Notes under the pieces: model-generated
What the model saw: the letters and a program-made list of their open reading frames with translations, nothing else
What the model was told of the DNA's origin: nothing
The model's database searches: none
Position numbers and translations under genes: made by a program
NCBI GenBank assembly: GCA_017643395.1
Contig: JAEPNP010000001.1
Coordinates: forward strand, 1,323,806-1,387,805
From: Rhodothermales bacterium
GTDB taxonomy: Bacteria; Bacteroidota; Rhodothermia; Rhodothermales; UBA10348
DNA length: 64,000 bases
Direction: 5' to 3'
In this document: positions 5,855 to 38,384 of the stretch, piece after piece
Numbering within the stretch: position 1 is the first letter of the stretch
Layout of the letters: each line of letters starts with the position of its first letter

Positions 5855-5900
5855 GGGGGTTGGTGCGGGAGGGGCTGGTGCGGCTCGGGCGCAGTTCGGG

Positions 5901-5970: not shown

Positions 5971-6021
5971 TCGGGCCAGGCCAGGCCCGGTCGAGCGCTC
6001 CGGAGTGGAATTGCGACCCCT

Positions 6022-6132
6022 GATTCCATGTTTGGCGGCTGTGCCTGGGGCTCGATGTGGACTAGCGGCCCTGATTCCACAAGCACGGCGGGCGTCCGGC
6101 GGTTCCGGGTGTAATGGCGGGCCAGGATTCCA
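6022..6132. repeat. Three spaced GATTCCA words
   Basis: GATTCCA occurs at 6022-6028, 6073-6079 and 6126-6132, i.e. at spacings of 51 and 53 bases. Each is preceded by a C-rich CCTG or CCAG. An inverted TGGAAT lies at 6006-6011. It may be a decayed tandem array or protein-binding sites. Confidence 0.45.
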
Positions 6133-6148
6133 CAACTGGGGCTCATGG

Positions 6149-6192
6149 CCGCCGCTCACGGCGGGAATGACCGCCGCTCACGGCGAGCATGG
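6149..6192. repeat. Tandem pair of 22-base units, the first with a perfect hairpin
   Basis: CCGCCGCTCACGGCG begins at 6149 and again at 6171. Unit one forms CCGCCG-CTCA-CGGCGG; in unit two the last pair of the stem is lost. There is no T tract, so it is not a terminator. Confidence 0.6.
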
Positions 6193-6315
6193 CTGCCGGA
6201 CCAGGCCAGAATAGTGTCAAACTGCCATTGCCCGACGCGTGGGAAGGCGCATCTTACGGTGTCGGAGACCCCGGCAATTCTCCGTTGTCTACGTTAGGCA
6301 CCTTCACCCTCAGGC

Positions 6316-7551
6316 ATGAGCAGACCCCAACCCTGGCAGTGGGCCGGCGGCGTCCTCCTGGTCGCAGTCCTTGGCCTTCTGATGTACGGCTTCTGGCCAC
6401 AACTGACCGGTGCGGCTGATGAGGCGGGTCCGGAGCGGCCGGAATCCGAAGGCTCCTCCAGACGCGCCAATGTCGACGTGCAGATCATCGAGCCGCGCGA
6501 TTTCGTGCTTCGTGCCGAAGCCACCGGTCACCTGCGCCCGTGGCGGGCTACCAAAGTCAGCGCCGAAGCGTCCGGCCGGGTAGTCGCGAGACCGCATGAG
6601 GAGGGTGACTTCGTGCGTCAGGGCACCGTTCTCCTGCAAATGGACTTCAGAGAGCAGGAAATCGCGCTGGCCGAGGCAGAGAGCGAGCTACTCAAGGCCC
6701 AGAGCGAGTTCGCAACATTCACCGCGTTTCGCTCTGATGTCGAGGTCGACTCCAGCGCCGTGCGCATCGCCCGGGAGCAGTTCGCGAACGCGGTGCAAGC
6801 GCGCGAAGAGGGTCAGATCACCGAACGAGAATTGACCCAGGCTCGTCGCACTCTCGACATCGCCTTGCTCCGTGCGGGAAATAGGCGCTCGGAAGTCGAA
6901 GCGGTCGTGTCCGGGCTCGCTCAGGCAGAAAGCCGCGCCGCCCGGGCCCGCCTCAACCTGGAGCGCATGCAGGTGGTGGCTCCATTCTCCGGATTCATCG
7001 CAGACATCGAGGTGGAGGTGGGCCAGCGCATCGGGGCGGGACAGGAACTGCTGCAGCTGCTCCAGACCTCCCGGATGCGCGTCCAGGTGGATGTCCTGGA
7101 GTCGGACCTGGCGCGTATCAGCCGTGGCGGGACGGCCCGCGTTCGCATCCCCGCACTGGACGATGAGGTCGTGCAGGGCCGTGTCCATGCCATAAATCCA
7201 AGCGTCGATCCAGACAAGGGTACCGGGCGCATCACGGTTGCCCTCGACAATTCTTCCGGCCGCCTGGTTTCCGGGCTGTTTGCCTACGTGGAACTGGAGG
7301 CCGGTCGTCTCGCAGACCGCGTAGTCGTGCCGACCGAGGCCTTGCTTGTGCGCCAGGGCAGGGACCTGGTTTTCCTGGTCGATGGTGGGCGCGCCAAGTG
7401 GACCTACGTCACGGTGGGTCGGCGCTCCGGCGACGCCGTGGAGATCGTCGAGCCACTCGTGGCCGGCGATTCACTGGCCGTGTCGGGACACCACGCACTC
7501 TCCCACGATGCCGCTGTGCGCGTGGAAAAGGTAGTAGCGCACGCCCAATGA
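6316..7551 (+). CDS. RND efflux periplasmic adaptor (HlyD/AcrA-type membrane fusion protein)
   Basis: 411 residues. It links an inner-membrane RND pump to an outer-membrane channel. Seen: an N-terminal anchor helix (about 10-27), a barrel-sandwich half (LRPWRATKVSAEASGRV...EGDFVRQGTVLLQMD), a long coiled-coil hairpin (about 115-215, rich in E, Q and A), the returning lipoyl strand (VVAPFSGFIADIEVEVGQRIGAGQELLQL), a beta-barrel domain and a membrane-proximal end (VVVPTEALLVRQGRDLVFLVD). This is the usual AcrA/MexA order and length. The stop codon overlaps the next start by 4 bases (ATGA). The likely partner permease is the RND gene at 10016; no TolC-type channel gene is in the window. The substrate is unknown. 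Confidence 0.93.
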   Translation: MSRPQPWQWAGGVLLVAVLGLLMYGFWPQLTGAADEAGPERPESEGSSRRANVDVQIIEPRDFVLRAEATGHLRPWRATKVSAEASGRVVARPHEEGDFVRQGTVLLQMDFREQEIALAEAESELLKAQSEFATFTAFRSDVEVDSSAVRIAREQFANAVQAREEGQITERELTQARRTLDIALLRAGNRRSEVEAVVSGLAQAESRAARARLNLERMQVVAPFSGFIADIEVEVGQRIGAGQELLQLLQTSRMRVQVDVLESDLARISRGGTARVRIPALDDEVVQGRVHAINPSVDPDKGTGRITVALDNSSGRLVSGLFAYVELEAGRLADRVVVPTEALLVRQGRDLVFLVDGGRAKWTYVTVGRRSGDAVEIVEPLVAGDSLAVSGHHALSHDAAVRVEKVVAHAQ

Positions 7552-8621
7552 GAAAGCCGCTTCAAACGCGTCTGGTGTGGTTGGCGTTGTGCATGCCATT
7601 GGTGCTGCCGGCAAGCGCGCAGGACCCCAACCCGTTCCTCGCGCACATCACGCCCATGGCGGAGGCTGAGGACATCGAGTCCGGGGCATTTGCCCAGTAC
7701 TTCGAGCGTGTAGGCCGCTGGGACTTTGCACCGGACGTCATGATCGCCGACTGGAATGGGGTCAGGTTCGGACCTGACGGCCGATTCGTCGGACTGGATC
7801 TGGGCGCTGGAGTGGCGCAGTACTTCGCGCCAGACGGCCGGCTCCTGAAGACGCTGGATCTCACTGAGTGCGAGCCCGGCTTCGCAGGTCAACTCACGAA
7901 GGCCGCCGTTTTCGACGACGGCAGTTTTCTGATCATGCCGTCGGGCGGAGTGCCCGGCTTCTGGTTCGATACATCCGGCACCTGCACCGGCAGGTTCGAC
8001 TACGGCCGTTTCTTCCCGCTATATGCCATCGCGTCACTGGGTCACCGCCTGATCACCGTGCGACGGGTTCCTCCGGTGCTGGAAATCGAAGAACGCGCGG
8101 ACGGAGACGTCCTCAAACGGACCATTACGTCCATCGACCGCCACCCGAACCTGAACGGCATCATTCCGGGTGGGGGACTCCACAGAACCTCTGAAGGTCG
8201 GCTCTATGTGGGCATGACCACGGGTCTCGACTATGCGGTGTTCGACTCGACCGGCCGCTCGCTCGGCGCGATCGGGGAAACGCCCGCATTCTTTCGGGGC
8301 GTGACTCAAGACGCTGAATCCCACGCTACTGCGTTCGGAGAGTACATGAGCCGGGTGTCGAAACTGAACAGCATTCGAGTGCGCTCTTTTCTGGTGGGCG
8401 ATGCGCTGGTCAGCCTGGCCCAGAACGGCTACGAACCCGAAACGTCTCCGCGCCGCCACGCGCTGCACGCCATCAGGATCACCGGCGAGTTGATCACAAG
8501 CGAGGATGTGTACCTGCCGAGGTCCGTCGTATTCGTTGGCGCGTTCGACGACCTGCTGTTCCGCCTGATGGTGCCAGACGACGGCGAGCCGTTCTTCGCG
8601 GTCTACCGGATTCGCGGATGA
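7548..8621 (+). CDS. Exported beta-propeller-like protein
   Basis: 357 residues from the ATG that overlaps the adaptor stop (ATGA). This start gives a good signal peptide (RLVWLALCMPLVLPASAQ). The mature part shows propeller-like repeats of the type 'VRFGPDGRFVGLD...QYFAPDGRLLKTL'. It is the most divergent of the six propeller proteins in the region and lacks the GxGPGE signature. Position and translational coupling to the adaptor suggest a periplasmic or surface partner of the RND system; the molecular role is unknown. Upstream in-frame codons lie inside the adaptor gene and were not used. Confidence 0.8.
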   Translation: MRKPLQTRLVWLALCMPLVLPASAQDPNPFLAHITPMAEAEDIESGAFAQYFERVGRWDFAPDVMIADWNGVRFGPDGRFVGLDLGAGVAQYFAPDGRLLKTLDLTECEPGFAGQLTKAAVFDDGSFLIMPSGGVPGFWFDTSGTCTGRFDYGRFFPLYAIASLGHRLITVRRVPPVLEIEERADGDVLKRTITSIDRHPNLNGIIPGGGLHRTSEGRLYVGMTTGLDYAVFDSTGRSLGAIGETPAFFRGVTQDAESHATAFGEYMSRVSKLNSIRVRSFLVGDALVSLAQNGYEPETSPRRHALHAIRITGELITSEDVYLPRSVVFVGAFDDLLFRLMVPDDGEPFFAVYRIRG

Positions 8622-8734
8622 GGACCGTTCTATTGCAGCGACCCGCCCCAGCCTGCCAACAAACAACGGTGTCACGTGCCGATGGCACTTTCGCCAGGGA
8701 GCCTCGGAGATCGTGGCCCCGACAACCCAGACCC

Positions 8735-9928
8735 ATGCGTAGTCTTCTGCCCTGTTTGGTACTCTCGACCCTGGTCGCCTGCAGCTCCGGCCCCGTGGAT
8801 AAACCGTCCCGACGCACGCTGGCCAACGGCGCCGTCGAGGTGAACCACAGCTCTCTGGCCAACACCCCGGGCCTGCAGTTGTCCGAGGAGCTCAGGATCG
8901 GAGTGGCCGGGTCAGGGTCCGATTCGGCCGATGACCCGTTCATATTCGGCGACATCCGGGACCTCGAGGTCGGCCTCGACGGCACGATCTACGTGCTGGA
9001 TTATCAGGCTGCCCAGATCCGCATGTTCGATAGCACTGGCGAGTTCATCGGCCTTCTTGCGGACAAGGGCGAGGGGCCGGGTGAGCTTGGAAGGACCAAC
9101 GGGATTCGGCTGGACTCTGATGGCTTTCTCTGGGTCAATGATCACGGCAATCGGCGCGTGACGCTTTTCGACAGCGAAGGGGCCATCGTCCGTGAGATGC
9201 CTTGGCGGGCGCGCGGCTATGGATATAGCTGGCGCGGCATGGGCCATGGTGGACGCTACTGGTATTTCTCCTCCGGGGAGCTCGATCCCGCAGAATTCGA
9301 CAAGCGGGGAGTCGTCGAAAGCACCTCCGAGACGTATCTGACATCGCTCGGGGAGACGGAGGAGGAGGACGTGAGTGTGTATCTGGGCTCGAACACGGGC
9401 AGCTATCTGCGTTTCCCAAGGGGCACCACCGGAATTCCGTTTTCAGGCGGCGGCGGCTCGTATTTGGACCCCGGAGGCCACGTCTGGATGGCAGCAAGTG
9501 CGGAGTACAAGCTCGTTCGCATGGATCTTGAGGCTGACACGACGCTCATGATCACGGCCTCGGTTGATCCGGCCCCCGTGTCGGATTCCGAGCGCACAAT
9601 GGCCATCGAGAACTACGAATCCATGATGGAGCGCATGGGTCAACTGGATATTGACTGGAGCATTATTCCGTCCCACAAACCCATGATTGGCGGGATTACC
9701 GGGACCGCGGAGGGCGGCGTTTGGGTCAGAAGGGATACCGACACGGGGCCGGTCTTCGACATTTTTGCGGGCGATGGGACCTATGGCGGAACAGCCGACG
9801 CGGGCGCTCTCGGAGCGTTCTCGGGTGTTGAACCGGTGATCCGGGGAGACAGAATCTGGGGTAAGGCCATGGACCGGGACGGCACCCCTGTGGTGATTCG
9901 CGCGAGGTTGATGCCCGCTGATCGGTAG
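8735..9928 (+). CDS. Six-bladed beta-propeller lipoprotein
   Basis: 397 residues from the ATG at 8735, which opens a lipoprotein signal (RSLLPCLVLSTLVAC, lipobox LVAC). An in-frame ATG at 8618 overlaps the previous stop (ATGA) but would add 39 unlikely residues in front of the signal. NHL/6-bladed propeller repeats: DLEVGLDGTIYVLDYQAAQ, IRMFDSTGEFI, the signature GEGPGEL, then FLWVNDHGNRRVTLFDSEG. The family (PF17170-like) is common in Bacteroidota; its biochemical function is mostly unknown. It sits between the adaptor and the RND permease on the same strand and is probably co-transcribed. Confidence 0.85.
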   Translation: MRSLLPCLVLSTLVACSSGPVDKPSRRTLANGAVEVNHSSLANTPGLQLSEELRIGVAGSGSDSADDPFIFGDIRDLEVGLDGTIYVLDYQAAQIRMFDSTGEFIGLLADKGEGPGELGRTNGIRLDSDGFLWVNDHGNRRVTLFDSEGAIVREMPWRARGYGYSWRGMGHGGRYWYFSSGELDPAEFDKRGVVESTSETYLTSLGETEEEDVSVYLGSNTGSYLRFPRGTTGIPFSGGGGSYLDPGGHVWMAASAEYKLVRMDLEADTTLMITASVDPAPVSDSERTMAIENYESMMERMGQLDIDWSIIPSHKPMIGGITGTAEGGVWVRRDTDTGPVFDIFAGDGTYGGTADAGALGAFSGVEPVIRGDRIWGKAMDRDGTPVVIRARLMPADR

Positions 9929-25734: not shown

Positions 25735-27618
25735 CTAGTCGCGGCCGACTTCCTCCAGGTACACCTGCTCGACCTTGTGCAGACGCACGATGGATCCGTC
25801 CGGGCCGCTCACGGTGACAGCCAGATCTCCGGAAACGGTGGTTCGCAGGGGTTGGCGGGACGACTCGGGCTCAAATCGGACCGTGGTGCCGTCCGCATCG
25901 TCGATCTGGATGGACACGGCCAGAGGCAGCAAGAATGTCAGTTGGGCGTGCCAGGTCGAGGCCGCAGGCTCAAGCTCCACGATGGAGGTATCCGCCCTCG
26001 CCCCGGCCCGCATGATCACGTACCGGTCGAACTGGTGATCGGTATAGACGATGGCCATGGAGGCGCTGTCCGCGGTCGTTTGCATGGCGCGTCCCAGATC
26101 TTCCACCCGGCCAACGACGATGGCATCCGCCTTATTGATTCGAGCCAATCCTTCCAGGTATTCGGGCTCGAACGGGGGACCGGTAAACACGGGAAGCCAG
26201 GTCCGCTTTATCTCCGCAACGGAGCTGTAGTGGTCGATGGTCCAGGTGTCATCCAGGGGGAGCAGCGCTCTTCGCAGATCCCGGGTGACGGCCTCAGAGG
26301 ACTTCGCCTCTCTCGGAGGAAGCAGGCGAACCGGAATCGACAGTTCTGTCCAGACCCGTTCGCCATCGACCACGCCAGGCAGCCATCGGCTTTCCTTCAC
26401 CGCACGAATGGCTTCGGCATCGCATCCCTCGGTGAGCCCGAAGCGCGTCTCCGGATTGTGCACGAACCCGTCGGGGTCCAGTATGAATTCAACCACGACG
26501 ATCCCGCCATATCGGGAGGGACAGGCATCGGAGGGATAGACCAGCGTGCGATTCAGCGAGTCGACTCCACCCGGCAACTCGGGCACCTGATCCGTGGTGC
26601 GGAATCGTTCCGAGGAACTGGAGACGGGCAACGCCAGCCTTTCGGCCAGTCCTGGCACCACAGCGGGTTCAGCAGGGGCACCAAGGCAGCCTCCGGCCAA
26701 TCCGGAAACCAGAAGCACCAGGGCGCCCAACCCCAACGCCGTCGCGGGCCTTGACTGCCGAGCCGCACGAGAACACTGGTCAAGGCGCTTTCGCAGGTCA
26801 GCGAACGAACTCATGGGCACGACAAGGTCTCCAGCCGGAGCGGTGCCGGCCGCTGCCAGGAGCGCGCGTCCGTATCGGCCGCGACTGACTGCCTGCCGCG
26901 TCAGCAGCCGCCCATCGCACGATAGCTCGCAGAGCGCGCGAAGCTGTCGGTCCAGCACGTGCGCCAGCGGGTGGAAAAAGAACACGGCTTTGATCAGACC
27001 GGCAGTCGCTGCCCGGAAGAGATCTCCGCTTCGAATGTGTTCATCCTCGTGGGCGATGGCCTCTTCGGGGTAGGGGAACGATGCGGGCAGCACCACGACC
27101 GGAGAGCGAAGGCCAAACGCGAACGGCCCGGCGGCCTGGGGAGACACCACAACCAGTCTGCCGGAGTTGAAGGATCGTTGACGGTCTGGAAGCGCGTGCC
27201 GGATGCACGCACCGAGGCGGATGGCCGAGACCGCGAATCGTGTCATGCCGAACAGGGAGAGCAGCAGACACGCGGCGGTGAGAAGACCGAGGGCCAGATG
27301 GAGGGGGTCCTGACGTGGTGGGGCCGGAGCAGCTTGAGCCGGCAGTTCGGGCGCCGGTGAGGGCGCCACCTCGCCCGCAACGAAGGCCGGCATGGGCTCG
27401 GGGACCGGGGCGGGCAGGCCCGGCACGATCTGGGCCAGGATGAGGGTCAACGGCAACGCGACCAGAATGGCCAGGCGGGCGTCCATCTGGAGCTGCCAGT
27501 CCCGGCGCCGCATCACTTGAAGCACGACGAGCAGAGCGGCTGCCAGCAGTGTCCACACAATGATCGGCTTCCAGAGGGGAAGCCATGCCGCCTGCCCGAG
27601 ATCTGCCAGTGCCATCAT
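25735..27618 (-). CDS. BlaR1-like M56 membrane metallopeptidase with TonB-type C-terminal domain
   Basis: 627 residues. Membrane-embedded zinc protease that in known systems cleaves its partner repressor after a signal. Seen: TM segments near 17-36, 48-66, 106-130 and 294-314; the zinc motif HEDEH at 190-194; ELSCD at 231-235 (third ligand region); then a TonB_C-like domain at about 352-433 (GGIVVVEFILDPDGFV...AIRAVKESRWLPG) where classical BlaR1 has a penicillin-binding sensor. The last 190 residues are beta-rich and unassigned. It overlaps the BlaI-like gene by 4 bases. No beta-lactamase gene is near, so the inducing signal and target genes are unknown. Confidence 0.9.
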   Translation of the reverse strand: MMALADLGQAAWLPLWKPIIVWTLLAAALLVVLQVMRRRDWQLQMDARLAILVALPLTLILAQIVPGLPAPVPEPMPAFVAGEVAPSPAPELPAQAAPAPPRQDPLHLALGLLTAACLLLSLFGMTRFAVSAIRLGACIRHALPDRQRSFNSGRLVVVSPQAAGPFAFGLRSPVVVLPASFPYPEEAIAHEDEHIRSGDLFRAATAGLIKAVFFFHPLAHVLDRQLRALCELSCDGRLLTRQAVSRGRYGRALLAAAGTAPAGDLVVPMSSFADLRKRLDQCSRAARQSRPATALGLGALVLLVSGLAGGCLGAPAEPAVVPGLAERLALPVSSSSERFRTTDQVPELPGGVDSLNRTLVYPSDACPSRYGGIVVVEFILDPDGFVHNPETRFGLTEGCDAEAIRAVKESRWLPGVVDGERVWTELSIPVRLLPPREAKSSEAVTRDLRRALLPLDDTWTIDHYSSVAEIKRTWLPVFTGPPFEPEYLEGLARINKADAIVVGRVEDLGRAMQTTADSASMAIVYTDHQFDRYVIMRAGARADTSIVELEPAASTWHAQLTFLLPLAVSIQIDDADGTTVRFEPESSRQPLRTTVSGDLAVTVSGPDGSIVRLHKVEQVYLEEVGRD

Positions 27619-28004
27619 TCCGATGCCTCGAGGTCTTCGACGAGCTTGCGCAGGGTTGCCGTCTCTTGCTCAGAGAGTTCCACCCCGTCCGCAAGTGCGC
27701 GCACCAGTTCGCTGCGAGAGCCCCCGAACACCGAGGCGACCATCTGCCTGAGGATGCCGCGCTTTACTTCATGCTCGGGCTTGCGGGGGGTGTAGAAATG
27801 CGTTTTGCCAACCAGCTCGGCATGCAGGTAGCCCTTTCGAGAGAGCTTGCGCATGATGGTTTGCACCGTGTTGTGCGCAAGGTCCCGCTCAAGTGAGTCC
27901 CGTACCTCCGCAACGGAAACGCGACCCAGCCGCCACACTGCGTTGAGGATGTCCATCTCGGTTTCCCCGAGGGAGGTCAGAATGCTTCGCGAACCTGGTG
28001 CCAT
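27615..28004 (-). CDS. BlaI/MecI-family transcriptional repressor
   Basis: 129 residues. Winged-helix dimeric repressor of the BlaI/CopY family. Seen: LGETEMDILNAVWRLGRVSVAEV (helices 1-2), HNTVQTIMRKLSRKGYL (recognition helix, near-canonical), the wing region KTHFYTPRKPEHE, and a C-terminal dimer helix ending in SELSEQ-type text (LSEQETATLRKLVEDLE). In known systems the M56 partner cleaves in the dimer domain. Two palindromic sites lie directly upstream and over the promoter, so it almost certainly represses its own operon. Confidence 0.93.
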   Translation of the reverse strand: MAPGSRSILTSLGETEMDILNAVWRLGRVSVAEVRDSLERDLAHNTVQTIMRKLSRKGYLHAELVGKTHFYTPRKPEHEVKRGILRQMVASVFGGSRSELVRALADGVELSEQETATLRKLVEDLEASE

Positions 28005-28096: not shown

Positions 28097-28525
28097 TCAG
28101 TCGGTGACCGTCAGCAGGACGGTATGGGCGCGTCCGGGCAGCGAGCCGGAGTCAAAGCGCATCGGAATATGCTTGTCTCTTCGCACGTCCACGGGGAGCT
28201 GCAGGGCGCGTCCAGGGACCAGATCCAACCGCTGGGACAGCACGTCAAGATCGAGTCCGGCATCGGACACGGCGGTGAGCTTGGTCCTTGCCCTGGGGTG
28301 GGATCGCACCGTGAGAAATGATTCCGCCTGTCCATCCAGGATGCGCACGCGTTGTGCTTCCGGCGTCAGGTAGTGGCGCTCCTTGATGACCACCGTCACC
28401 ACCTGCCGGGCGCGGTCCTGCCCCAGGGCAGTGCCCGCGCACAGCAGCGCCAGGCACAAGGCAGCGAGGGCGCGCTGCGGCCATCGGTTTTGAAAGGGAA
28501 TCATCCCTTTCAGAAACGATGGCAA
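28097..28525 (-). CDS. Small exported protein, possible minor subunit of the pilin-like group
   Basis: 142 residues from 28525 (or 135 from the ATG at 28504). Signal peptide AALCLALLCAGTALGQ. The mature part is short and Arg-rich (VVTVVIKERHYLTPEAQRV) and ends AHTVLLTVTD, close to the C-terminal strand of the pilin-like proteins upstream (TVTLTITS, TVTLTLTAE, TILLTIAAQ). It lacks their Gly-Ser-Pro-Asp motif. It follows a terminator, so it may be expressed separately. Membership in the system is inferred from the shared end strand and position. Confidence 0.65.
   Translation of the reverse strand: MPSFLKGMIPFQNRWPQRALAALCLALLCAGTALGQDRARQVVTVVIKERHYLTPEAQRVRILDGQAESFLTVRSHPRARTKLTAVSDAGLDLDVLSQRLDLVPGRALQLPVDVRRDKHIPMRFDSGSLPGRAHTVLLTVTD
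28492..28511 (-). promoter_or_regulatory. Hairpin over an internal start codon
   Basis: GAAAGGGA and TCCCTTTC pair perfectly over 8 bp with a 4-base loop. On the minus strand the AAAGGG before the ATG at 28504 lies in the stem and the ATG straddles stem and loop. This could mask the second start codon of the small exported protein. Confidence 0.4.
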
Positions 28526-28544
28526 TTCCGGTTTTTGCGGCGCA

Positions 28545-28582
28545 ACAGAAAAGGGCCGGGCATCATCAGATGCCCGGCCCTT
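28545..28582 (-). terminator. Intrinsic terminator after the pilin-like gene
   Basis: A 14-bp perfect stem (28551-28564 with 28569-28582) and a 4-base loop. On the minus strand the stem ends in CCTT and continues TTCTGTTG, a T-rich tail. It is placed 29 bases after the stop of the gene ending at 28611. Confidence 0.8.
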
Positions 28583-28610
28583 AAAGAAGCGTCAAACCGC
28601 CAGGGGCGGC

Positions 28611-29093
28611 TCAGCTGGTAATCGTCAGCGTGACCGTCTGCGCTTCACCTGCTCCGTTGGAGGTCGCGGACGGGGTGGCTGAAGCGGTATACGAGATACC
28701 GATTCCGCTCTCTGCGAGGTTGGAGATGCCAGTAACCACCTCTTGTGCACTTGTCGTCAGCGTGGTCGAACCGGCAGACGTGCCACCAGAAGGTGCCGTC
28801 AGGTTGATGGCCAGTGAGATGCCGGTGGCGTACGCGCTACCGAGTGCAGCGGTAATCTTTTTCGCCGACCCGTTCGTTGTGATCGAATAGGACGTCGAGC
28901 TGTCGGTCGCGTCATCCGGGTTGCTACCGGCCGTCGCGGAGTTGACGGTCAGGGTTACCGACCCGGAGGAGACGGAAATGGAATTGATGTCGGACACCAC
29001 AACGGTGACCGTCTGGTTGGCGGTTTGCGCCGAGACGGGTGCGGCAGCCAGCAAGGCCGCAACAGTCGCCAGAGTGTAGAAGTATTTTTTCAC
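28611..29093 (-). CDS. Pilin-like small exported protein
   Basis: 160 residues from a GTG at 29093, which gives a good signal peptide (KKYFYTLATVAALLAAAPVSAQ). The mature protein is a Thr/Ser/Gly-rich beta-strand sequence. It shares with the proteins at 33138 and 33611 the motif A-T-x-G-S-x-P-x-x-x-x-x-x-S-T near mature residue 40 and the end strand TVTLTITS. It is closest to the 33611 protein (both have VTGISNLAESG / VTGVSKVAESG and PSATSNGAGE / PSAAPNGAGQ). No cysteines are seen. Likely a structural subunit of the neighbouring chaperone/usher-like system; DUF4402-like surface proteins are an alternative. It is set apart from the usher-like gene by a 106-base leader with hairpins. Confidence 0.8.
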   Translation of the reverse strand: MKKYFYTLATVAALLAAAPVSAQTANQTVTVVVSDINSISVSSGSVTLTVNSATAGSNPDDATDSSTSYSITTNGSAKKITAALGSAYATGISLAINLTAPSGGTSAGSTTLTTSAQEVVTGISNLAESGIGISYTASATPSATSNGAGEAQTVTLTITS

Positions 29094-29130
29094 GGTTATC
29101 GCCCAGAGGGATCGGGTGACAGGACTCACT

Positions 29131-29195
29131 GCGGGCAATAACCCGCACTCCTTTCCATCGGCCGTCAGACAACCCGACTTAAGTCCCCGGGACTT
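29131..29195 (-). promoter_or_regulatory. Leader with two hairpins between usher-like and pilin-like genes
   Basis: GCGGG-CAATAA-CCCGC at 29131-29146 and AAGTCC-CCG-GGACTT at 29181-29195, with the latter followed by T residues only on the plus strand. In this co-directional operon they could stabilise or process the pilin-like message. No promoter motif was recognised. Confidence 0.35.
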
Positions 29196-29199
29196 TTTC

Positions 29200-32100
29200 C
29201 TACCGTGCGCGGTACCGCAGGACCCAGCTACCCTCAGGCAACTGTGGGCCCAGTGACGTGATAGCGGCGGCTGCGTGCCCGAATCTGGGGAATTGTCCCA
29301 TCGCTATCCGGAACCTCGACCGGGACTCTACTTCCATCTCAAGGACCTTGACCGGCAGGCCTAGCTGCTCGACGAGGGCCACCAGGCGCTGGGCATCCTG
29401 GGCGGTCGTGGTGGAGCCGACCACGATGGTGTACGGCGGGGCGGAATCGCCTTCCTGCCAGGCCGCTGTCGGCAGCGCGACGTCGGCGCTCGCTCGTGCC
29501 TGAGGTGCCTCGGCCTCGGCCTCCACCGGACGGGGAGAGGTGGCGGTCGGCACAGCCTCGACAGGCTGGTTCGGTGCAACGGCCTCGGCGGACCGCTCCG
29601 GCGAGGCCTCGACGGACTGCTGACCAAGCACCAGCGCCGGGGAATCCCCGGCATTTTCCTGGGTGATCATTCTGATTCGCGGTGCGTCCTGCACCAGCAG
29701 GAACTCCACCGCGCCCGTAGCGCCACCTTCCAGATCAACCTGCATCGTTGCAGGTTCCAGCCGGTGTCTTGGGGGCAGCGGGGAAATGGCCCTCAGCGTA
29801 TAGCTGCCCGGCACCACATGCCTGAATACCACGCGCCCCAGTCCATCCGACCGCACGCGGTACCGGAATGGTGCCGCCAATAGCTCGAACACCATGTTTG
29901 AGACGGGCGTCGTCTCTTCGTGATCAGCCCGTTCGGCCTGACCGAATCCCGCATCTGACCCCAATACGACCTTGTGTACGGTGGCCTCGAGGGAAGCCGA
30001 GCGCGTAATCGGAATCTCAATCGGGGCCGCGATCTCCGATGTCGTCGCTTCTATCGGCATGGTCAACTGCGGCACGTTGCCAAGGCCGATACTGCGCTGG
30101 TCAACACGTAGAAAGACATGGCCGTGGCCGGATCCTGCGAGCCGGAAGCGCCCCTGGGTATCCGTGATGGCCACATCGTCGCCGGAAAAGATGAGTACGC
30201 CGGAGAGGCCTGCCCCCGTGGCAGCGTCAAACACTCTCCCCGTGATATAGTCCTTGTGCGACGGAACCCGAGGTCCGGGAAGACCGATAGGCATGGAGTA
30301 GCTGACTCGATAATCCGTCCCGATGGGGGCAGAACCATCGAACACTGATCGCTGCACCTGAAGGGAGAGCCGGTGGCCTGCCCTTAGCGTGCGCCGTGCC
30401 TCCGCTCGCCATGTCACGGATTGACGCCGCGACGTTCCGGTGTACACGTTGTAGTAGGCGTTGGCGTAGAGCGCCGTGCTTCCGCGGCGATATCCAACGC
30501 GGCCGTTGAACAGGCGCCGCTTGTAGGCCGGAGTGAGGTCGCTCAGTCTCCCGGAAGCGTATTCCCAGTTGGTCCAGACGGAAATCGCCCGAGACAGGGC
30601 GGCCTGCACGGAGATGCTTGCTCGGAGGGACGGCGTGGAGGTCCCGGAGGCCCGCCCCTCTACGCTTCCGGCGTCGAGCGTGGTTCTGAAGGACAGTGCC
30701 GAACGGTATAGACCTGCCTGGAACCGCGCCAGACGCTCACGCAGTCCCGAGACGGCCGTAAGCCCGTCATAGGTCTGGTTACGATCCAACCATCCGCCGC
30801 TCAAGAATACGCGGGAAGCACCGAGGCGATGATGGAAATTCAGCCACACCTGTTGTTGGAGCGAGGTGCGGGAGGCAGAGCCTGCGTAGGACTGCGCCTG
30901 CTGCTGGAACGAGGCGTCCAGACGAAGTCGCTTCATCAGCTGAAAGGTGAATCTGCCGGACGCTTGTTCACTGCCTGCCATGGCACCCGGGAAGGAGGGA
31001 GCCCCGCGGAGCACGCGTCCTTCCAGGGAGAGTCTGCCGGTCCGAGCCGACAACGAGGTGAGGCAGGAGGGAGAGCGCGCGGATGACTCGACGCCAACGC
31101 CGCACTCCAGGTCAAGGACCCAGTCTGCCCGCTTCGGACGAACTACGCCCCGCCAGGAGGCGAACGAGCCGTCGTACAACCCACTTCGGTGGAATCCGTT
31201 GAGGCTCGCTTCGAGGGGGCCCTGTGTCCAGGCCAGCGAAAGTGCATGGAGGCCCTGCCGCGGATACATGTGGCGCGTTGCCTGCGAGGTGCCGCGAACG
31301 CGGACAGCGCCATGCTCGAGATCCACACCTACGCCTGCGCCACCAAATCCGCGCGGGGCGAGTTGCGAAACGAACTGACGATGATCGCCGACCTGAACGA
31401 TGGCATTTCGGGACGACCACGTCGCGTGGTACCGGTCACGGGACCCGAGAAGGGAGCTACGACCCGGACCCGCCAGTACATCGAGCTGGACCGTGCCCCC
31501 GAGAAGCGAGGAGCTGCCGGTGGCACCGATCAAACTTCCGCTACCGCGCTCATCGCCGGCGGTCTGTACGCTGAGGTTAATGGGCACTCGCGATCGTTCG
31601 GTCGCCGTGCGCTCGAAGCCGGGCACCACGTGCACACGACCGGTTGCCGCCGAGAAGGCGTTTCCGGATCCGGAGGCCGAGACGTACAGCTTGTGCACAA
31701 CCCGCTCTTCACCGGTAGCGCTCGTGGTAAGTGAAGCCCACACGATGCGCGAGGAACGGGGTTTCAGTCGGAGATCCTGTGCGGCGAGTGACAACGAGGC
31801 GCCGGACAGGCCTCGAGTGGAAAGCCGCACCTCCAGACTCACGTTGCCCTCATTGAAGACCTCCACAGGAAATCTGAGCGTGTCACCGGCCGATACGTAT
31901 TCGTCTTCGATGGGCATGCGCAGGGCGAGCCGGTGCGTGGCGCGCACGGTCACTCCGGCTTCTGCGCGGGCGGAATCGGCGAGGGTTGAAATGTGAACGG
32001 CCACCTCGTGGCGTCCGGCTGCCGCCGCATGACCGACGCGGAAGGTGAGCAGACCAATGGCAGAAGCCTCAGTCGCGACCGGAATCTCGGTGAGCTGACT

Positions 32101-32319
32101 TGCGAGCACCCATCCCAACGGGAGCTCCAGCGCTGCACGTGCAACCACATCCTCGGACCCACGGTTGTGTACCCGATAGACCAGGGTGAGCAGATCGCCG
32201 GGGTTTGCGATGAGGCTGTCCTGCTCCACCAGCTCGACCGAGAGATCTTGCGCCGCCATCGGAACGGCCAGCAGGCAGCTCAAAAGGAGCAGAGCCGGGA
32301 TATGGGCCCGCGGCGCCAC
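29200..32319 (-). CDS. Usher-like outer-membrane protein with CARDB-like, carboxypeptidase-regulatory-like and SPOR domains
   Basis: 1039 residues; signal peptide IPALLLLSCLLAVPMAAQ. Residues 27-235 hold two beta-sandwich domains of the CARDB/NEW3 type (ANPGDLLTLVYRVHNRGSED; SAGDTLRFPVEVFNEGN). About 245-690 is rich in alternating polar/aromatic strands with Arg/Tyr/Trp, as in an outer-membrane barrel (for example YRRGSTALYANAYYNVYTG). About 688-750 is a carboxypeptidase-regulatory-like domain (GRVFDAATGAGLSGVLIFSG), with a further small beta domain at 805-855. The last 80 residues are SPOR-like (PYTIVVGSTTTAQDAQRLVA...RFRIAMGQF). It lies 3 bases after a PapD-like chaperone gene. Length and context suit an usher, but no PapC-family motif was identified, so 'usher-like' is an inference. 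Confidence 0.7.
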   Translation of the reverse strand: MAPRAHIPALLLLSCLLAVPMAAQDLSVELVEQDSLIANPGDLLTLVYRVHNRGSEDVVARAALELPLGWVLASQLTEIPVATEASAIGLLTFRVGHAAAAGRHEVAVHISTLADSARAEAGVTVRATHRLALRMPIEDEYVSAGDTLRFPVEVFNEGNVSLEVRLSTRGLSGASLSLAAQDLRLKPRSSRIVWASLTTSATGEERVVHKLYVSASGSGNAFSAATGRVHVVPGFERTATERSRVPINLSVQTAGDERGSGSLIGATGSSSLLGGTVQLDVLAGPGRSSLLGSRDRYHATWSSRNAIVQVGDHRQFVSQLAPRGFGGAGVGVDLEHGAVRVRGTSQATRHMYPRQGLHALSLAWTQGPLEASLNGFHRSGLYDGSFASWRGVVRPKRADWVLDLECGVGVESSARSPSCLTSLSARTGRLSLEGRVLRGAPSFPGAMAGSEQASGRFTFQLMKRLRLDASFQQQAQSYAGSASRTSLQQQVWLNFHHRLGASRVFLSGGWLDRNQTYDGLTAVSGLRERLARFQAGLYRSALSFRTTLDAGSVEGRASGTSTPSLRASISVQAALSRAISVWTNWEYASGRLSDLTPAYKRRLFNGRVGYRRGSTALYANAYYNVYTGTSRRQSVTWRAEARRTLRAGHRLSLQVQRSVFDGSAPIGTDYRVSYSMPIGLPGPRVPSHKDYITGRVFDAATGAGLSGVLIFSGDDVAITDTQGRFRLAGSGHGHVFLRVDQRSIGLGNVPQLTMPIEATTSEIAAPIEIPITRSASLEATVHKVVLGSDAGFGQAERADHEETTPVSNMVFELLAAPFRYRVRSDGLGRVVFRHVVPGSYTLRAISPLPPRHRLEPATMQVDLEGGATGAVEFLLVQDAPRIRMITQENAGDSPALVLGQQSVEASPERSAEAVAPNQPVEAVPTATSPRPVEAEAEAPQARASADVALPTAAWQEGDSAPPYTIVVGSTTTAQDAQRLVALVEQLGLPVKVLEMEVESRSRFRIAMGQFPRFGHAAAAITSLGPQLPEGSWVLRYRAR

Positions 32320-32322
32320 CGC

Positions 32323-33141
32323 TCAGTTGACTTCGAGGTTGTATTCTGCTCCAAACACGTCTTCTCCGCCGCCATCGAAAATGACCAGTGCGCGGTAGCG
32401 GCCCGGCGCCAATGTGCCCAGACCAATCTCCTGGCGCACGGATGTGCCGGGATAGATTCTGTTCTGAACCCCGTCGTGCTTTCCGAGCGCCGACCCGTCT
32501 TCCGCGTACACTTCGACCCAGACCTCAGGGCGGATCATGCGTGTGCCCTGGTTTTCGACAAGGACCTGGAGGGCCGTCTGGCCACCGTCCAGGAGCTTGA
32601 GTTCGCTCCCCGTGATGTTCAGGCTCGGTCCGCCTGTACCCCGGATATGGGTTGCGACCTGAATGCCATAGCGCATGATCTGCAGCACATAGTATTCGGG
32701 TTCTCCGTTCTCCGGGTTGATCGTGGATTCGGGTGATTCAGGGGGCACGGCCTCGACCATGATCATGCTCCAGTAGGAACCCTCAGGCTCGGCGCCATTC
32801 ACGGATTCGGGAACGGCTACCCGGTAGTTCACCGGTACCGACTGCTGGGGCGGAATGGTGATGGTGCCGGCCGAGACCTGGGTCCAGAGGGCGTTTGACC
32901 TTGGCTCCGATCCGGGCTCTCCATACACATTGGTTCCGTCGGCGAAGAACCGGTAGTCGGTCTGATAGACCTTTGCCTGCTGGATGACGTCAGTCTCGTT
33001 CCAGACCTCCACCACGCCGTCATAGGTAGTCCCGGGGGCGACCCTTCGATCGTCCGACAAAGCCGTTCGAATGGAAATCTGAGCCTGAACCGCTGCAGGC
33101 ACACTCAGAACGCAGAGTAACAGTATGAGGCGAAGCATCAT
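32323..33141 (-). CDS. PapD-like periplasmic pilus chaperone
   Basis: 272 residues; signal peptide LRLILLLCVLSVPAAVQAQ. Two immunoglobulin-like halves. The first matches the chaperone plan: RRVAPGTTYDGVVEVWNETD (strand A/B with conserved N), YQTDYRFFADG, SAGTITIPPQQSVPVNYRVAVP (the 'PPqs' strand before F). The second half contains SLNITGSELKLLDGGQTALQVLVENQGTRMI, again a typical NEW3/chaperone-like strand set. In known systems such proteins cap pilus subunits before the usher. It overlaps the upstream pilin-like gene by 4 bases and is 3 bases from the usher-like gene. A WxL-type/DUF916-like protein is the main alternative. Confidence 0.7.
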   Translation of the reverse strand: MMLRLILLLCVLSVPAAVQAQISIRTALSDDRRVAPGTTYDGVVEVWNETDVIQQAKVYQTDYRFFADGTNVYGEPGSEPRSNALWTQVSAGTITIPPQQSVPVNYRVAVPESVNGAEPEGSYWSMIMVEAVPPESPESTINPENGEPEYYVLQIMRYGIQVATHIRGTGGPSLNITGSELKLLDGGQTALQVLVENQGTRMIRPEVWVEVYAEDGSALGKHDGVQNRIYPGTSVRQEIGLGTLAPGRYRALVIFDGGGEDVFGAEYNLEVN

Positions 33142-33614
33142 TGCGCAGCTATGGTTAGCAGAATGGTGTGCACATCATCGCCCTCGTCGACGCTTGCTCC
33201 CTGCGAGGTCGTGGCGCTGGCCCGGTACGTGAGCGTACCCGAGCCCTGTCCACCGGGCGATGTGGTTGGAATGTCCCGGAACAGATCTGTGTCGAGCATG
33301 CCGTCCGTCAGTTGAATCTCACCCTGCTCGGTTCCGCTCGTGCCCGAGCCCCAGGAGGTCACGGTCAACTCGACGTAGAGGCCGAACGACTGACCGGGAC
33401 ACGTCGTGGATACGGTGATCTTGGAGGTCGCCGATCCCTGTGAGTCCCAGCTCAGCTCCGTGGAATTGTCGGTTGCGTCCGTCGGATCGCTGCCCGTGGT
33501 AGCGGTGGTAATGCTCAGGTTGAGCGCACCGCCACCGGCGGTGAAGCTGACGGTCTGGGCGGATGCTTCGACACTGACGGTCATGAGCCCTATGAGCAGC
33601 AGCAGACCTTTCAT
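33138..33614 (-). CDS. Pilin-like small exported protein
   Basis: 158 residues; signal peptide GLLLLIGLMTVSVEASAQ. Beta-rich and Thr/Gly/Ser-rich, with the group motif ATTGSDPTDATDNSTELSW and end strand HTILLTIAAQ. One Cys (VSTTCPGQ), so no disulfide. It diverges from the two other pilin-like proteins in the middle, which suggests a tip or adaptor subunit rather than the major subunit. Both ends overlap neighbours by 4 bases (start with the 33611 gene, stop with the chaperone), so it is translationally coupled. Confidence 0.78.
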   Translation of the reverse strand: MKGLLLLIGLMTVSVEASAQTVSFTAGGGALNLSITTATTGSDPTDATDNSTELSWDSQGSATSKITVSTTCPGQSFGLYVELTVTSWGSGTSGTEQGEIQLTDGMLDTDLFRDIPTTSPGGQGSGTLTYRASATTSQGASVDEGDDVHTILLTIAAQ

Positions 33615-34165
33615 TCCGCCGTCAGTGTCAGGGTGACGGTTCGGCTCTGACCCGCTCCGTTCGGTGCGGCCGACGGGGTGCCGGTGGCCGTGTAGGTCAG
33701 GGTCAGGCCGGATTCGGCAACCTTGGAGACTCCTGTGACCAGATCCTGAGGGGTGGTACTCAGCGTCACCTGGGATGCGCTGCCTCCGGAGGGCGCGGCC
33801 AGGAGCAGTTGCACGGTCAGGCCGGCGGAGAACCCGGAATCCAGGCTGCCGGTAATCTTCTGCCCCGCCTGATTGACGGTGATGCGGTAGACCGTTGAAG
33901 CGTCCACGTCCGAATCCGGACTGGACCCGGCTGTCGCAGCGTCAATGGTTAGCGTGACGTTCCCGGAGACGGAAATCAGGCTGATCGCAGAGACGCTCAC
34001 CGTGACGGACTGCGTCAGCGTCGTGCCATCATACGCGGTCACGGCTCCCGGGAGGGCAACCTGGGCCGCGGCCGTCTGCCCTGCAGGAAGAATCAACCAG
34101 CAGGCGGCAAGAAGTCGCACGAATCGTCGTGCGTCGATAAGGGGTATGGGGGAGGCGAACGCCAC
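33611..34165 (-). CDS. Pilin-like small exported protein
   Basis: 184 residues; signal peptide FVRLLAACWLILPAGQTAAAQ. The mature part has the group motif ATAGSSPDSDVDASTVYRITV and ends RTVTLTLTAE. It is clearly related to the 28611 protein. First of five tightly linked genes (34165 to 29200) with 4-base overlaps to the next. A palindrome (TTCTGCC/GGCAGAA, 34194-34212) lies 28 bases upstream in the gap after the giant T9SS gene. Likely a pilus or surface-fibre subunit. Confidence 0.8.
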   Translation of the reverse strand: MAFASPIPLIDARRFVRLLAACWLILPAGQTAAAQVALPGAVTAYDGTTLTQSVTVSVSAISLISVSGNVTLTIDAATAGSSPDSDVDASTVYRITVNQAGQKITGSLDSGFSAGLTVQLLLAAPSGGSASQVTLSTTPQDLVTGVSKVAESGLTLTYTATGTPSAAPNGAGQSRTVTLTLTAE

Positions 34166-34229: not shown

Positions 34230-37200
34230 CTAACGGGCCAGAATCATGGTTCGTGTAAGGACAGTCTGTCCGGCATGAATGCGATAGAAGTAGTGACCGC
34301 TTGGTAGGCCACCTGCAGTCCATCGAACATCATGCCACCCTGCCTCGCGCGTGCCGTCAACCAGGGTCTGCAGGCGCCTCCCCAGGAGATCGAACACCTC
34401 GACCTGCACGTGGTCCGCCTCGGGCAGGAAGAAGCGAATGGACGTGCGCGGGTTGAACGGGTTGGGGTAGTTCTGGGCGAGGATCATCTCGTTGGAGGCG
34501 ACCTCGGGATCGGGCATCGTGGCGAGCGCCGGATCCACGACGACCAGTCGGAACCGGGCAGAGGGCTTGTAATCCTCAAAGTCGGGCGAAGGCACGACCT
34601 CATCGTCGGTGAGAACCACCCAGACCCCATCGGCAATGCGCAGGTCGAGCGTGCGGAAGTCCTTGAGATCCTGCAGTCGCAAGTGCCAATCTTCCGGGAT
34701 GTCGGCCAGCGCAGGCCAGCTGAGACGGTAGCGGCCTGGCCTCGAGGCCAGAAGGGCGATGTCGTACGTGGCCATACCCCCCGACATATCGCGGTGGTCG
34801 AACGCGAGTGAGCGATCCGATTCCAGGGAGGCGAGCGTGACGTAATCGGGTGCCAGTGGTGCCGGCCTCGGGGTATCGCCCGAATCCGCCCCCTGCTTCG
34901 CGCCTTCGGCGAAGGTGAGATAGGTCTCGGAGTCGGCGACGCCCTCCCCCTCAATCCAGAGCTGCACGTAAGCGGCCGGTTTGCCTCCCTTACCGAAGTA
35001 GTCCGAGGTGCCCAGATTCGCGGCCTCACTCGTGGGGAACGCGATGGAGCCTCCCGTCGCCGTGGGCCTGACCATCATGGCGGTGAAGGGAGATATGTAT
35101 CGGCTGGCAGCCCCCACCTGACTCGTCGAGTTGTAGAACTTGTAGCCGGTCAGGCCGCCTCCCGTCGTGAGGGAAGGGTCCCAGGTCGCATAGGTCGCCG
35201 CCAGATTGGTAGACGCGGCGACCACGGCATGCCAATCCAGCTTCGAGGGTGTTGGATTACCGATAAAGCTGTAGGAGTCGGTCTCCTGCGTATTCCAGGG
35301 CAGACTGACGGAGCTCGCTCCCCAGAGCGTCCCGGTGACTGACCACGTGGCAGGCAGCAGGGTGGTGCTGTTCACCTCGTTGAACATGTAAAGGATGTAG
35401 CCCCCAGCCTCGGAGAACGCCGCGTCGGAGCCGCTCAGCTCGGTCCAGTCCTGATTGGAAAAGTCCGGGGCCTGCAGGGTCGCGGAGCCCTGACTGAAGT
35501 CGGCCCACGATGCGCCCTGCGTGTGGAAGGCCGCATTGAGATCAGAGTAGTTGACCCCCGAAAGGGGTGACGCAATCATGCGCCACCCGTCAGAAGCCTG
35601 CGAGTAGGTCCGCTGCATGGTGATGGTCCCGGAGACGGTGCCACCATTGTACAGGGTGGCGCCGTGCGACAGCTGGAGCGTGTTTCCGTTGACGTTCAGG
35701 GTCCCTGCACGAACGGCCACGGTGCTCGACGCCGTGAGATCCGTGGCCAGGGCCAGGGTCGAGCCGGACTTGTCGACGGCCAGGGTCGGAATGGTCAGCG
35801 TGCCTGGCGAATACGTCAGCGTGGCGACGCTGGAGCCGGTCATGGTCAGCGTCGCGGCATTGGAGATCGCGGTCCCGGCCGTGAGCGATCCAGCGAGACT
35901 GACATCGTTGTTGTTGAAATCCAGTGCGCCCGAAGTGGAGGTCAGATGTCTGATTCCTGCCAGGCCGGCATGCAGCACGATGCCGCCCGTGTTCTCGACA
36001 TAGAGATCGATCTCTCCGTTGAATCCCGACGCGGCCGTGATGTCCTGCGCACTGCTGCCGTTGAACTTTACCGATGCCGTGGAGGAGCCGATTTCTTCGA
36101 GCGTTCCGCCGTTGAGCACGAAGTCGCCGGTAACGTTGAAGGTGGGCAACGCCGCCCCGTCCGTGAGGCGCACCGTACCGCCAGTAATGGAGACGTCCGC
36201 GGCGGTGAGCGTTCCGGCGGCATCCGAGAAGAGAAACGTGCCCCCGGTGACCGCGAGGTTTCCCCCGAGAGTGAGGTCGTCAGCCGAACCCCATTGCAGG
36301 GTGCCGGAGCCGGTCGACTGCACCGTGAGGTTGCCGGACACGGCCGCAGGGCTGCCGTTCAGGTCAAGACTGGCGGATTGGCTCGTGACATTCCAGGTAA
36401 GGTGAGCATAGCTGTCCGTAAAGTTGCCCGGCAGCGTGCCGGTGACGCCGGTCACGAGCAGCGTCGAGCCGGACGCCCAGGTAGTATTTGCGACAGGGGG
36501 CAGGTTGCCGCCGTCCTGCGCGTGCTGCCAGACACCGCCGCTCTGGATGGTGATGGTCGGGCTTCCAGCGACAGCGAACGTACTGGCATTCACCACAGTA
36601 CCCGACACATCGAGACCGGGAGTGTCTGCATCCGTCAGCCGGAGGGCGGCCTGCAGACTAAGGGTCCCTCCTGAGGCCACATAGGTCTCGTCGGACGTTG
36701 TCGAGACGTCTACCGTCACCGTGTGTCCACTCTGGACCGTGATGACTCCATCGCCAAAGTCGGGCGCTTCGACCGCGCTGATCCACGTAGAGTTGTCATT
36801 TACTTCCCAGGTGGCCGCAGCACTCCAGTTTCCGGTGGCGGCGGAGCGGTAGCTCAGGTCCGACGTGTCGACTTCGAGCGTCACGCCGCTGGAAGTTGGA
36901 GAATCGCCGGAGGCGTTGGCGTGCACGGCGGTGATGGTGTGCGTGCCGCCCATTAGCACGCCAGTGGTGATGGACCACGTGCCTGACGAAACGGTCGTGG
37001 TGGGGGATAGCGTGCCCTGAAGGCTGGAGGTCAGAGTGATGGTGCCGCCGTCCTCGGTGCCGGTGCCGGAGATCGTCGGCGTGATGTCCGTGGTCGGCGT
37101 TGTCGGCGGGGTGATGGTCGGTGCCCCGGGCGGCGTGAGATACGAGATATCCAGCCGCGGGGCGTTGGACGACTCGCCATCATAGGCTTCGGCGGTCCGG

Positions 37201-38384
37201 ATTCCGCTGCCGGACGCACTCTTGAAGATCAGGACGATGTCGTTGCCCGAGTTCCAGCCGCTCCGGTCGACCACCTCCTGGATGACGGACGAGAGGTCTG
37301 GAGTCTGTTGATCGGCGCCCTCATCCGAGACCGATTGCCAATGGGGGATCGACCAGCTGACGCTGGCGGTCGTCTCCGTTCGAGAGCCGATGTTGTTGTT
37401 CGACGAGGTGAAGGTCGAGGCATCGTCCACGTCCTCTGCCCGGATAGTCACCTCAATGGCGGTATTGGCTTCGGTCTCGTCGACGTGGAATTGAACCGTC
37501 GCTGACGAAATGGAGGCTCCCTGAGGAATGGCGATGGACTGGAAGCGCATGCCCACATACTGCTCGCCACCGTCAGTCATCAGTTCGAGGTCGGAGCTGT
37601 TGAGGTCCATGGAGCCCCCGCTGACCGCCTGCTCGGCGTCATCGCTGGACTGGGAAACCGAGCTGGAAACGCTGCCGCCTCCGGGGGTGGTATATGAGAC
37701 CTCCAACAGGGGAGCCGATCCCGATTCGCCGTCATAGGCCTCGGCCGTGCGCTTGCCGCTTCCGGAGGACTTCTTGATGATCAGCACAATGTCGTTGCCT
37801 GAACTCCAGCCACCCCGGTCTACGATTTCCTGGATAATCGCCGACAGGTCGGGCGTCTGCTGATCACTGCCTTCGTCATTGACGGACTGCCAGTGTGGAA
37901 TCGACCAGTCCACGGTTGCCGACGTCTCCGTGCGTGAGCTGATATCGTTGTTGGAGCTCGAGAACGTCGACGCGTCGTCGATATCCTCTCCGCTGATGGT
38001 GACCTCAATCGCCGTCGACGACTCCGTCTCGTCGACGTGAAACTGCACCGTGGCGGACGTGATGTTGGCCCCAGCCGGAATGCTGATCGACTGGAATCGA
38101 AGGCCGATGTACTGGTCGCCTCCGTCATCGACCAATTCCAGATCGGTGCTGTTCAGATACATGGAGCCGCTGCTCGCATCCTGCTCGGCATCATCGCTGG
38201 ACGAACTGACGCGGACCGAGACGCTTTGCGCGTGGCCGACTTGCCCGGTCAAGAGACTCAACGGCACCAGAGCGGCCGTGAGCAAGAGCACACGTCGACA
38301 GACCCGAATCAGCCAGGGCTCTCGGGAAAAGGGGGCGCGATGTGAATTGAGGGCACGCACGCTCGCACGCGCAGCGCAAGGCAC
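34230..38384 (-). CDS. Giant secreted multidomain protein with tandem repeat domains and T9SS sorting domain
   Basis: 1384 residues. After a 31-residue N-tail comes a signal peptide (VLLLTAALVPLSLLTGQVGHAQ). Two tandem 170-residue beta domains (62-234 and 246-416; period 184) share SSDDAEQ, GLRFQSI/GMRFQSI, SATVQFHVDETE, SIPHWQSV, DQQTPDLS and RTAEAYDGES. Then an Ig-like domain (about 420-505), long Ser/Thr/Gly-rich stretches with lamin/beta-helix flavour (TATGNWSAAATWE), and a terminal T9SS type A sorting domain (QNYPNPFNPRTSIRF...VFDLLGRRLQ...GLPSGHYFYRI). Surface-attached; adhesion or carbohydrate binding is likely. It precedes the pilin-like/chaperone/usher-like genes by 64 bases on the same strand. 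Confidence 0.9.
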   Translation of the reverse strand: MPCAARASVRALNSHRAPFSREPWLIRVCRRVLLLTAALVPLSLLTGQVGHAQSVSVRVSSSSDDAEQDASSGSMYLNSTDLELVDDGGDQYIGLRFQSISIPAGANITSATVQFHVDETESSTAIEVTISGEDIDDASTFSSSNNDISSRTETSATVDWSIPHWQSVNDEGSDQQTPDLSAIIQEIVDRGGWSSGNDIVLIIKKSSGSGKRTAEAYDGESGSAPLLEVSYTTPGGGSVSSSVSQSSDDAEQAVSGGSMDLNSSDLELMTDGGEQYVGMRFQSIAIPQGASISSATVQFHVDETEANTAIEVTIRAEDVDDASTFTSSNNNIGSRTETTASVSWSIPHWQSVSDEGADQQTPDLSSVIQEVVDRSGWNSGNDIVLIFKSASGSGIRTAEAYDGESSNAPRLDISYLTPPGAPTITPPTTPTTDITPTISGTGTEDGGTITLTSSLQGTLSPTTTVSSGTWSITTGVLMGGTHTITAVHANASGDSPTSSGVTLEVDTSDLSYRSAATGNWSAAATWEVNDNSTWISAVEAPDFGDGVITVQSGHTVTVDVSTTSDETYVASGGTLSLQAALRLTDADTPGLDVSGTVVNASTFAVAGSPTITIQSGGVWQHAQDGGNLPPVANTTWASGSTLLVTGVTGTLPGNFTDSYAHLTWNVTSQSASLDLNGSPAAVSGNLTVQSTGSGTLQWGSADDLTLGGNLAVTGGTFLFSDAAGTLTAADVSITGGTVRLTDGAALPTFNVTGDFVLNGGTLEEIGSSTASVKFNGSSAQDITAASGFNGEIDLYVENTGGIVLHAGLAGIRHLTSTSGALDFNNNDVSLAGSLTAGTAISNAATLTMTGSSVATLTYSPGTLTIPTLAVDKSGSTLALATDLTASSTVAVRAGTLNVNGNTLQLSHGATLYNGGTVSGTITMQRTYSQASDGWRMIASPLSGVNYSDLNAAFHTQGASWADFSQGSATLQAPDFSNQDWTELSGSDAAFSEAGGYILYMFNEVNSTTLLPATWSVTGTLWGASSVSLPWNTQETDSYSFIGNPTPSKLDWHAVVAASTNLAATYATWDPSLTTGGGLTGYKFYNSTSQVGAASRYISPFTAMMVRPTATGGSIAFPTSEAANLGTSDYFGKGGKPAAYVQLWIEGEGVADSETYLTFAEGAKQGADSGDTPRPAPLAPDYVTLASLESDRSLAFDHRDMSGGMATYDIALLASRPGRYRLSWPALADIPEDWHLRLQDLKDFRTLDLRIADGVWVVLTDDEVVPSPDFEDYKPSARFRLVVVDPALATMPDPEVASNEMILAQNYPNPFNPRTSIRFFLPEADHVQVEVFDLLGRRLQTLVDGTREAGWHDVRWTAGGLPSGHYFYRIHAGQTVLTRTMILAR
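37137..38201 (-). repeat. Tandem duplicated domain-coding segments (two copies)
   Basis: Copy 1 covers 37683-38201 and copy 2 covers 37137-37649 inside the giant T9SS gene, period 552 bases. Protein identity is high over the core, with conservation of whole phrases such as SATVQFHVDETE and RTAEAYDGES. Confidence 0.8.

Follow-up and report, generated by a model that had tools for sequence, protein, structure and literature searches.

A six-gene locus in the genome of a Rhodothermales bacterium (4.5 Mb, 21 contigs) probably encodes a chaperone-usher-like pathway belonging to a separate, unnamed branch. The locus runs on the minus strand from 34165 to 28097 of the window, the 64,000-nucleotide stretch of DNA that was analysed, and contains three or four exported Ig-like subunits, a PapD-like chaperone and a barrel protein. 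From its upstream end it encodes the subunits S184 (184 aa; 33611-34165) and S158 (158 aa; 33138-33614), the periplasmic chaperone (272 aa; 32323-33141), the usher-like outer-membrane gate (1039 aa; 29200-32319), the subunit S175 (175 aa; 28611-29138) and a probable divergent subunit (142 aa; 28097-28525). The first four genes are packed: S158 overlaps S184 by 4 bases, the chaperone gene overlaps S158 by another 4, and a 3-base gap separates the chaperone gene from that of the gate. This layout had been put forward in an original prediction made from sequence alone, and it held, as an ORF check recovered all six genes and codon usage marks all six as coding. Signal-peptide-like N-termini are visible in 6/6 proteins, and the true start codons of the 175-aa and 142-aa genes are likely to be internal, at about 29093 and 28504. 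The remark that obvious Pfam usher or fimbrial features are lacking was also upheld: Pfam and NCBIfam name none of the locus proteins apart from CarboxypepD_reg and SPOR domains in the gate, no PapD-family, usher or fimbrial Pfam model is matched over threshold among the window proteins, and Usher (PF00577) has no match anywhere in the source genome. The central claim, that this is the gene content of a chaperone/usher pathway, is supported by predicted folds, conserved gene order and the subunit family.

The arrangement of the genes is not a matter of chance, since same-order orthologues occur in many relatives. Of 100 genomes related at the level of the order or closer, 27 carry the chaperone, and in 29 of 32 same-order loci the gate gene was identified directly after it. 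Scanning GTDB genomes gave 96 relatives, of which 80 were retained; the gate gene directly follows the chaperone gene in 79 of these wider loci, and in the sole exception the contig stops 85 bases past the chaperone. Carriers span 16 phylum-level groups in the tree, which by record titles are Bacteroidota, Rhodothermota, Ignavibacteriota, Pseudomonadota (Chromatiaceae), Myxococcota, Thermodesulfobacteriota, Spirochaetota, Bacillota (including Orenia), Verrucomicrobiota, Planctomycetota, Armatimonadota, Acidobacteriota, Gemmatimonadota, Synergistota, Krumholzibacteriota and Rifleibacteriota. Single phylum placements are unsure because many carriers are metagenome bins; named isolates are also found among them, and cultured carriers include Salinivenus, Thiohalocapsa marina and Orenia metallireducens. 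Plasmid 2 of Deinococcus deserti (5402-9250 of its locus, L167) holds a small exported-protein candidate, a chaperone and a gate, and this one annotated record examined names the family members as something else: the chaperone as FimB/Mfa2 and the gate as “carboxypeptidase regulatory-like”. Omp85 was matched in each of the 16 carrier genomes tested, in 15 of them above the cut-off, so these carriers have outer membranes; the possibility that the Bacillota carriers are monoderms was ruled out by the presence of Omp85. The family is widespread in diderms and not peculiar to Rhodothermia, which corrects the original prediction. No description of it was found in the open literature searched, most subscription journals being outside the scope of that search.

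The large protein would have spoken against the pathway had it been predicted as a soluble multi-Ig protein without a barrel, and it was not. Its mature core (residues 24-905), modelled by AlphaFold2 with 54 relatives at a pLDDT of 88.8, has two N-terminal Ig-like (NEW3-like) domains (31624-32250), a predicted 26-strand beta-barrel (30277-31590) and two C-terminal beta-sandwich domains (29680-30249; CarboxypepD_reg-like by domain match and model), all on the minus strand. No domain-sized insertion that could represent a plug lies between the barrel strands of the model. Foldseek ranks 1-9 in the PDB are all FimD or PapC ushers, with E values down to 1e-12. By VIA, PapC aligns at Z 16.8 over model residues 220-854, spanning the barrel and the C-terminal domains, and the FimD barrel scores Z 17.3 against the gate barrel. 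Beyond the core, the window's gate ends in a SPOR domain (29251-29439, minus strand), a peptidoglycan-binding domain that is replaced by LysM in some relatives. Among 28 gates with tails of at least 60 residues, SPOR occurs in 12 and LysM in 6; another 38 full-length gates stop at the core without a tail, so peptidoglycan tethering is a lineage-specific addition.

The top VIA match of the gate barrel alone is not an usher: it is MtrB (chain B of the Mtr complex), at Z 21.4. MtrB is 26-stranded. Could the locus be a barrel-plus-Ig secretion or conduit module, such as an MtrB-like conduit or a type IX accessory, in which the small proteins serve as accessory plugs? Besides the MtrB match, this alternative draws support from a neighbour: a 1384-aa protein with a type IX secretion tail is encoded directly upstream on the same strand (34230-38384), and a protein with such a tail regularly opens the cluster within the window's clade, in the window itself and in 6/6 close relatives tested. 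However, no haem protein or cytochrome is encoded at the window locus, the gate, unlike MtrB, has Ig-like domains on both sides of its barrel, and most other phyla lack the type IX neighbour but keep subunits, chaperone and gate in one cluster. A conduit module can be discounted almost entirely. The type IX link may be functional or only positional, as the source genome has 136 such tails together with SprA. At its other end the operon is adjoined, on the same strand (25735-28004), by genes for a penicillinase-repressor-like regulator and an M56 BlaR1-like peptidase with a TonB C-terminal domain; that these regulate the operon is no more than a possibility.

Sequence comparisons with named ushers and chaperones give weak signals or none. 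Searches of the PDB by phmmer with the window's gate and with its chaperone found nothing, hhalign of the chaperone profile against E. coli K-12 chaperones gave no signal, and profile comparison of the gate with five E. coli K-12 ushers reached a probability of only 20% (0.3% for FhuA and LptD). In a relative of the same class (genome G260; L149:2598-8778), a gate encoded next to a chaperone of the family has a match to Usher PF00577 at E 3e-4 and 20.1 bits, below the 27.1-bit cut-off, and the chaperone of another locus, L152, matches WxLIP_PGBD just above cut-off and PapD_N weakly. These two matches make distant homology to the known chaperone-usher families likely, but membership of the named usher and PapD families is not shown. 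The L149 locus may stand between this family and the canonical systems; a DUF4402-like subunit (a weak match) lies close to its gate, a hint that DUF4402 proteins might be fibre subunits.

A second alternative is that the locus is a canonical archaic (sigma) chaperone-usher system that has merely diverged. The gene content is the same, CsuC and CfaA are among the top chaperone folds, and archaic systems are known from Deinococcus-Thermus and Cyanobacteria (PMC4654587). The likeness extends to classical as well as archaic systems (FimC/FimD, PapD/PapC, CsuC/CsuD), which share with the locus a two-domain PapD-like chaperone, a wide outer-membrane barrel that leads into two C-terminal sandwich domains, the gene order, and small exported subunits of which some have an N-terminal extension and some do not. 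Against this, profile similarity is weak, no Usher match over threshold exists in 198 genomes of the phylum, and the window proteins match neither PF00577 nor PF00345 over threshold. The window gate has 26 predicted strands rather than 24, no plug, NEW3-like N-terminal domains and a tail of the SPOR/LysM kind, and the window subunits are unrelated by sequence to the known ones. Simple divergence from the archaic type is thus very improbable.

The chaperone was modelled from an orthologous locus (L076), whose “near” subunit and chaperone were folded as one chain, in frame across the subunit stop codon under NCBI table 6, purely for the purpose of modelling and without any claim of read-through. 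The L076 chaperone is 47% identical to the window's 272-aa protein, and its part of the model (AlphaFold2, pLDDT about 97) adopts a two-domain PapD-like fold. The predicted PapD-like chaperone therefore held, and the absence of that fold, which would have counted against it, was not seen, but its closest structural relative proved to be the Gram-positive WxLIP (Z 16.6). CfaA, of the alternative pili, is the best fold after WxLIP (Z 12.9), followed by FimC (12.6) and CsuC (12.2), with YadV, CupB2 and SfaE also at Z 12-13 and PapD at Z 10.9. A profile of 25 chaperone sequences gives a full-length match to EfmWxLIP1, through both the PGBD and HBD domains, at E 1.5e-5, and WxLIP_PGBD is detected in 8 of 25 family members at E<=1. 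The chaperones have no C-terminal transmembrane helix and end in a beta strand.

Arg157, Gln161, Trp86, Trp124 and Pro231 are invariant in 81/81 chaperone sequences. The first two lie in residues 149-166 (32644-32697, minus strand), the predicted G1 strand region. The G1 strand donates in PapD, and a donor role for this region is inferred from the PapD-like topology. The subunit-chaperone model, a single chain with the signal peptide as linker, leaves the F1-G1 loop (263-284) unstructured at a pTM of 0.63; no strand is seen to enter the subunit, so donation remains an inference. It is supported by a published prediction (PMC10599100) that the WxL sandwich is completed by a WxLIP hairpin, which adds a parallel strand. 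In domain 2, the chaperone has in common with EcpB the pattern N-x-G...R...P-G-x-S (N197, G199, R204, P231, S234), noted by eye. The profile comparison with EcpB was negative; EcpC gave a weak signal of 22.5%, confined to its C-terminal part. Arg228/Tyr249 had been considered as a copy of the CsuC/EcpB carboxylate anchor and was dropped after alignment with EcpB by the N-x-G and P-G-x-S motifs, which puts EcpB Arg148 opposite Arg204 and the anchoring Tyr169 opposite Arg228. A carboxylate anchor in this chaperone may at best be similar to that of CsuC/EcpB.

The G-S-x-P motif described for three exported pilin-like proteins was confirmed in the 184-aa (AGSSP), 158-aa (TGSDP) and 175-aa (AGSNP) proteins, and is absent from the 142-aa protein. 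The subunits fall into two types. “Far” subunits (S175, S184) have an extension such as QTVTVxVxAINEI followed by an LTIxxATAGSxP core; “near” subunits (S158), whose genes adjoin that of the chaperone, begin almost at the core. The extension is QSVTVSVSAISLI in S184 (about 34012-33974) and QTANQTVTVVVSDINSI in S175 (about 29027-28977), both minus strand and donor-strand-like. Most subunits bear such an N-terminal extension and the chaperone-adjacent one does not: the median distance from the mature N-terminus to the AGS motif is 33 residues in “far” subunits versus 21 in “near” ones, although individual lengths are rough because signal cleavage sites were set by a simple rule. Alternation within the extension is not counted as evidence, because the segments for that test had been picked in a biased way, and the function of the extension as a donor strand is inferred. 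Both types end in an alternating C-terminal strand (HTVTYTIxxQ). The 142-aa protein has QVVTVVI near its mature N-terminus and AHTVLLTVTD at its C-terminus, weakly matches the “far” profile, and is likely a divergent subunit. The incomplete Ig fold proposed for the subunits is consistent with these data and possible, but has not been demonstrated.

The same neighbourhood, proposed as a check, was found in other genomes, where the subunits form one family and almost every relative encodes them ahead of the chaperone gene. Usually two or more small exported proteins occupy this position. A subunit profile trained only on near relatives (loci L063-L089) and the window found an upstream subunit within 4 kb in 48 of the 49 held-out loci (from L090-L142) that had room for one, and 94 of 99 held-out matches were on the operon strand. 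At one locus (L152:8687-15817), several near-identical tandem subunit copies, the same in their first 40 residues, surround the operon, which may point to subunit duplication or variation.

Likeness of the chaperone to WxLIP raises a third alternative, in which the locus is a diderm relative of WxL/WxLIP clusters: the Ig protein would stabilise small subunits exported through the barrel, which would remain non-polymeric, bound to the surface or to peptidoglycan, without fibres. The full-length chaperone homology and structural match favour this alternative, as do the SPOR/LysM tails that link the gate to peptidoglycan, and both kinds of cluster have small exported partners with a predicted strand insertion (PMC10599100). 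In contrast to WxL/WxLIP systems, however, this family is found in diderms only (among those tested), its chaperone is without the membrane helix, and a wide outer-membrane barrel is always present. WxL-domain membership of the subunits was rejected, with no match in Pfam, NCBIfam or PDB sequences. The presence of an N-terminal extension on some subunits and its absence from others is, moreover, what polymerisation needs. A non-polymeric WxL-like system is therefore unlikely. A further comparison is with the type V pili of Bacteroidia (FimA/Mfa1 of Porphyromonas), which are Bacteroidota fibres made by strand donation, as is inferred for this locus. Type V pili use lipoprotein precursors and no usher; the window subunits have a dedicated chaperone and gate.

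The preferred reading, a chaperone-usher-like pathway, can be set out as a mechanism. What computation shows is the folds (as predicted by model), the conservation of the family, and the presence or absence of the extension; complementation, exchange, polymerisation, the tip role and the fibre are inferred, and no fibre has been observed. Subunits would cross the inner membrane by Sec and be bound in the periplasm by the 272-aa chaperone, via the conserved G1 strand of its first Ig domain. This strand would complete a subunit sandwich missing one strand, and the C-terminal strand of the subunit (HTVTYT-type) would be held. The complex would be delivered to the 1039-aa gate, with the Ig-like N- and C-terminal domains acting as usher periplasmic domains, the wide 26-strand barrel as the exit, and the SPOR domain fixing the gate to peptidoglycan. 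In donor-strand exchange, the incoming “far” extension (Q/H-[ST]-V-T-V-x-V-x-x-I-N) would displace the chaperone strand in the previous subunit. Being without an extension, the “near” subunit could only accept, and would start the fibre; S158 is thus the putative tip or first subunit, by analogy with chaperone-usher pili.

Chaperone-usher pili are said to be limited to Proteobacteria, Cyanobacteria and Deinococcus-Thermus (PMC4654587). The family described here extends them by a second lineage, which no family model matches, in Rhodothermota, Ignavibacteria, Planctomycetes, Spirochaetes, Verrucomicrobia, Armatimonadota and others, and it suggests gates tethered to peptidoglycan. A bolder reading, towards which the balance tips slightly, is that this is a separate branch of the chaperone-usher superfamily across many diderm phyla, with a plugless 26-strand gate that is peptidoglycan-anchored in some lineages and a chaperone that links diderm pili to monoderm WxL/WxLIP systems; the branch would have been overlooked because every component falls outside family models. 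With sequence and structure bridging WxLIP and PapD chaperones, the origin of pilus chaperones becomes testable. If the bolder reading is true, one strand-donating pair of chaperone and subunit would predate the usher or have existed alongside it.
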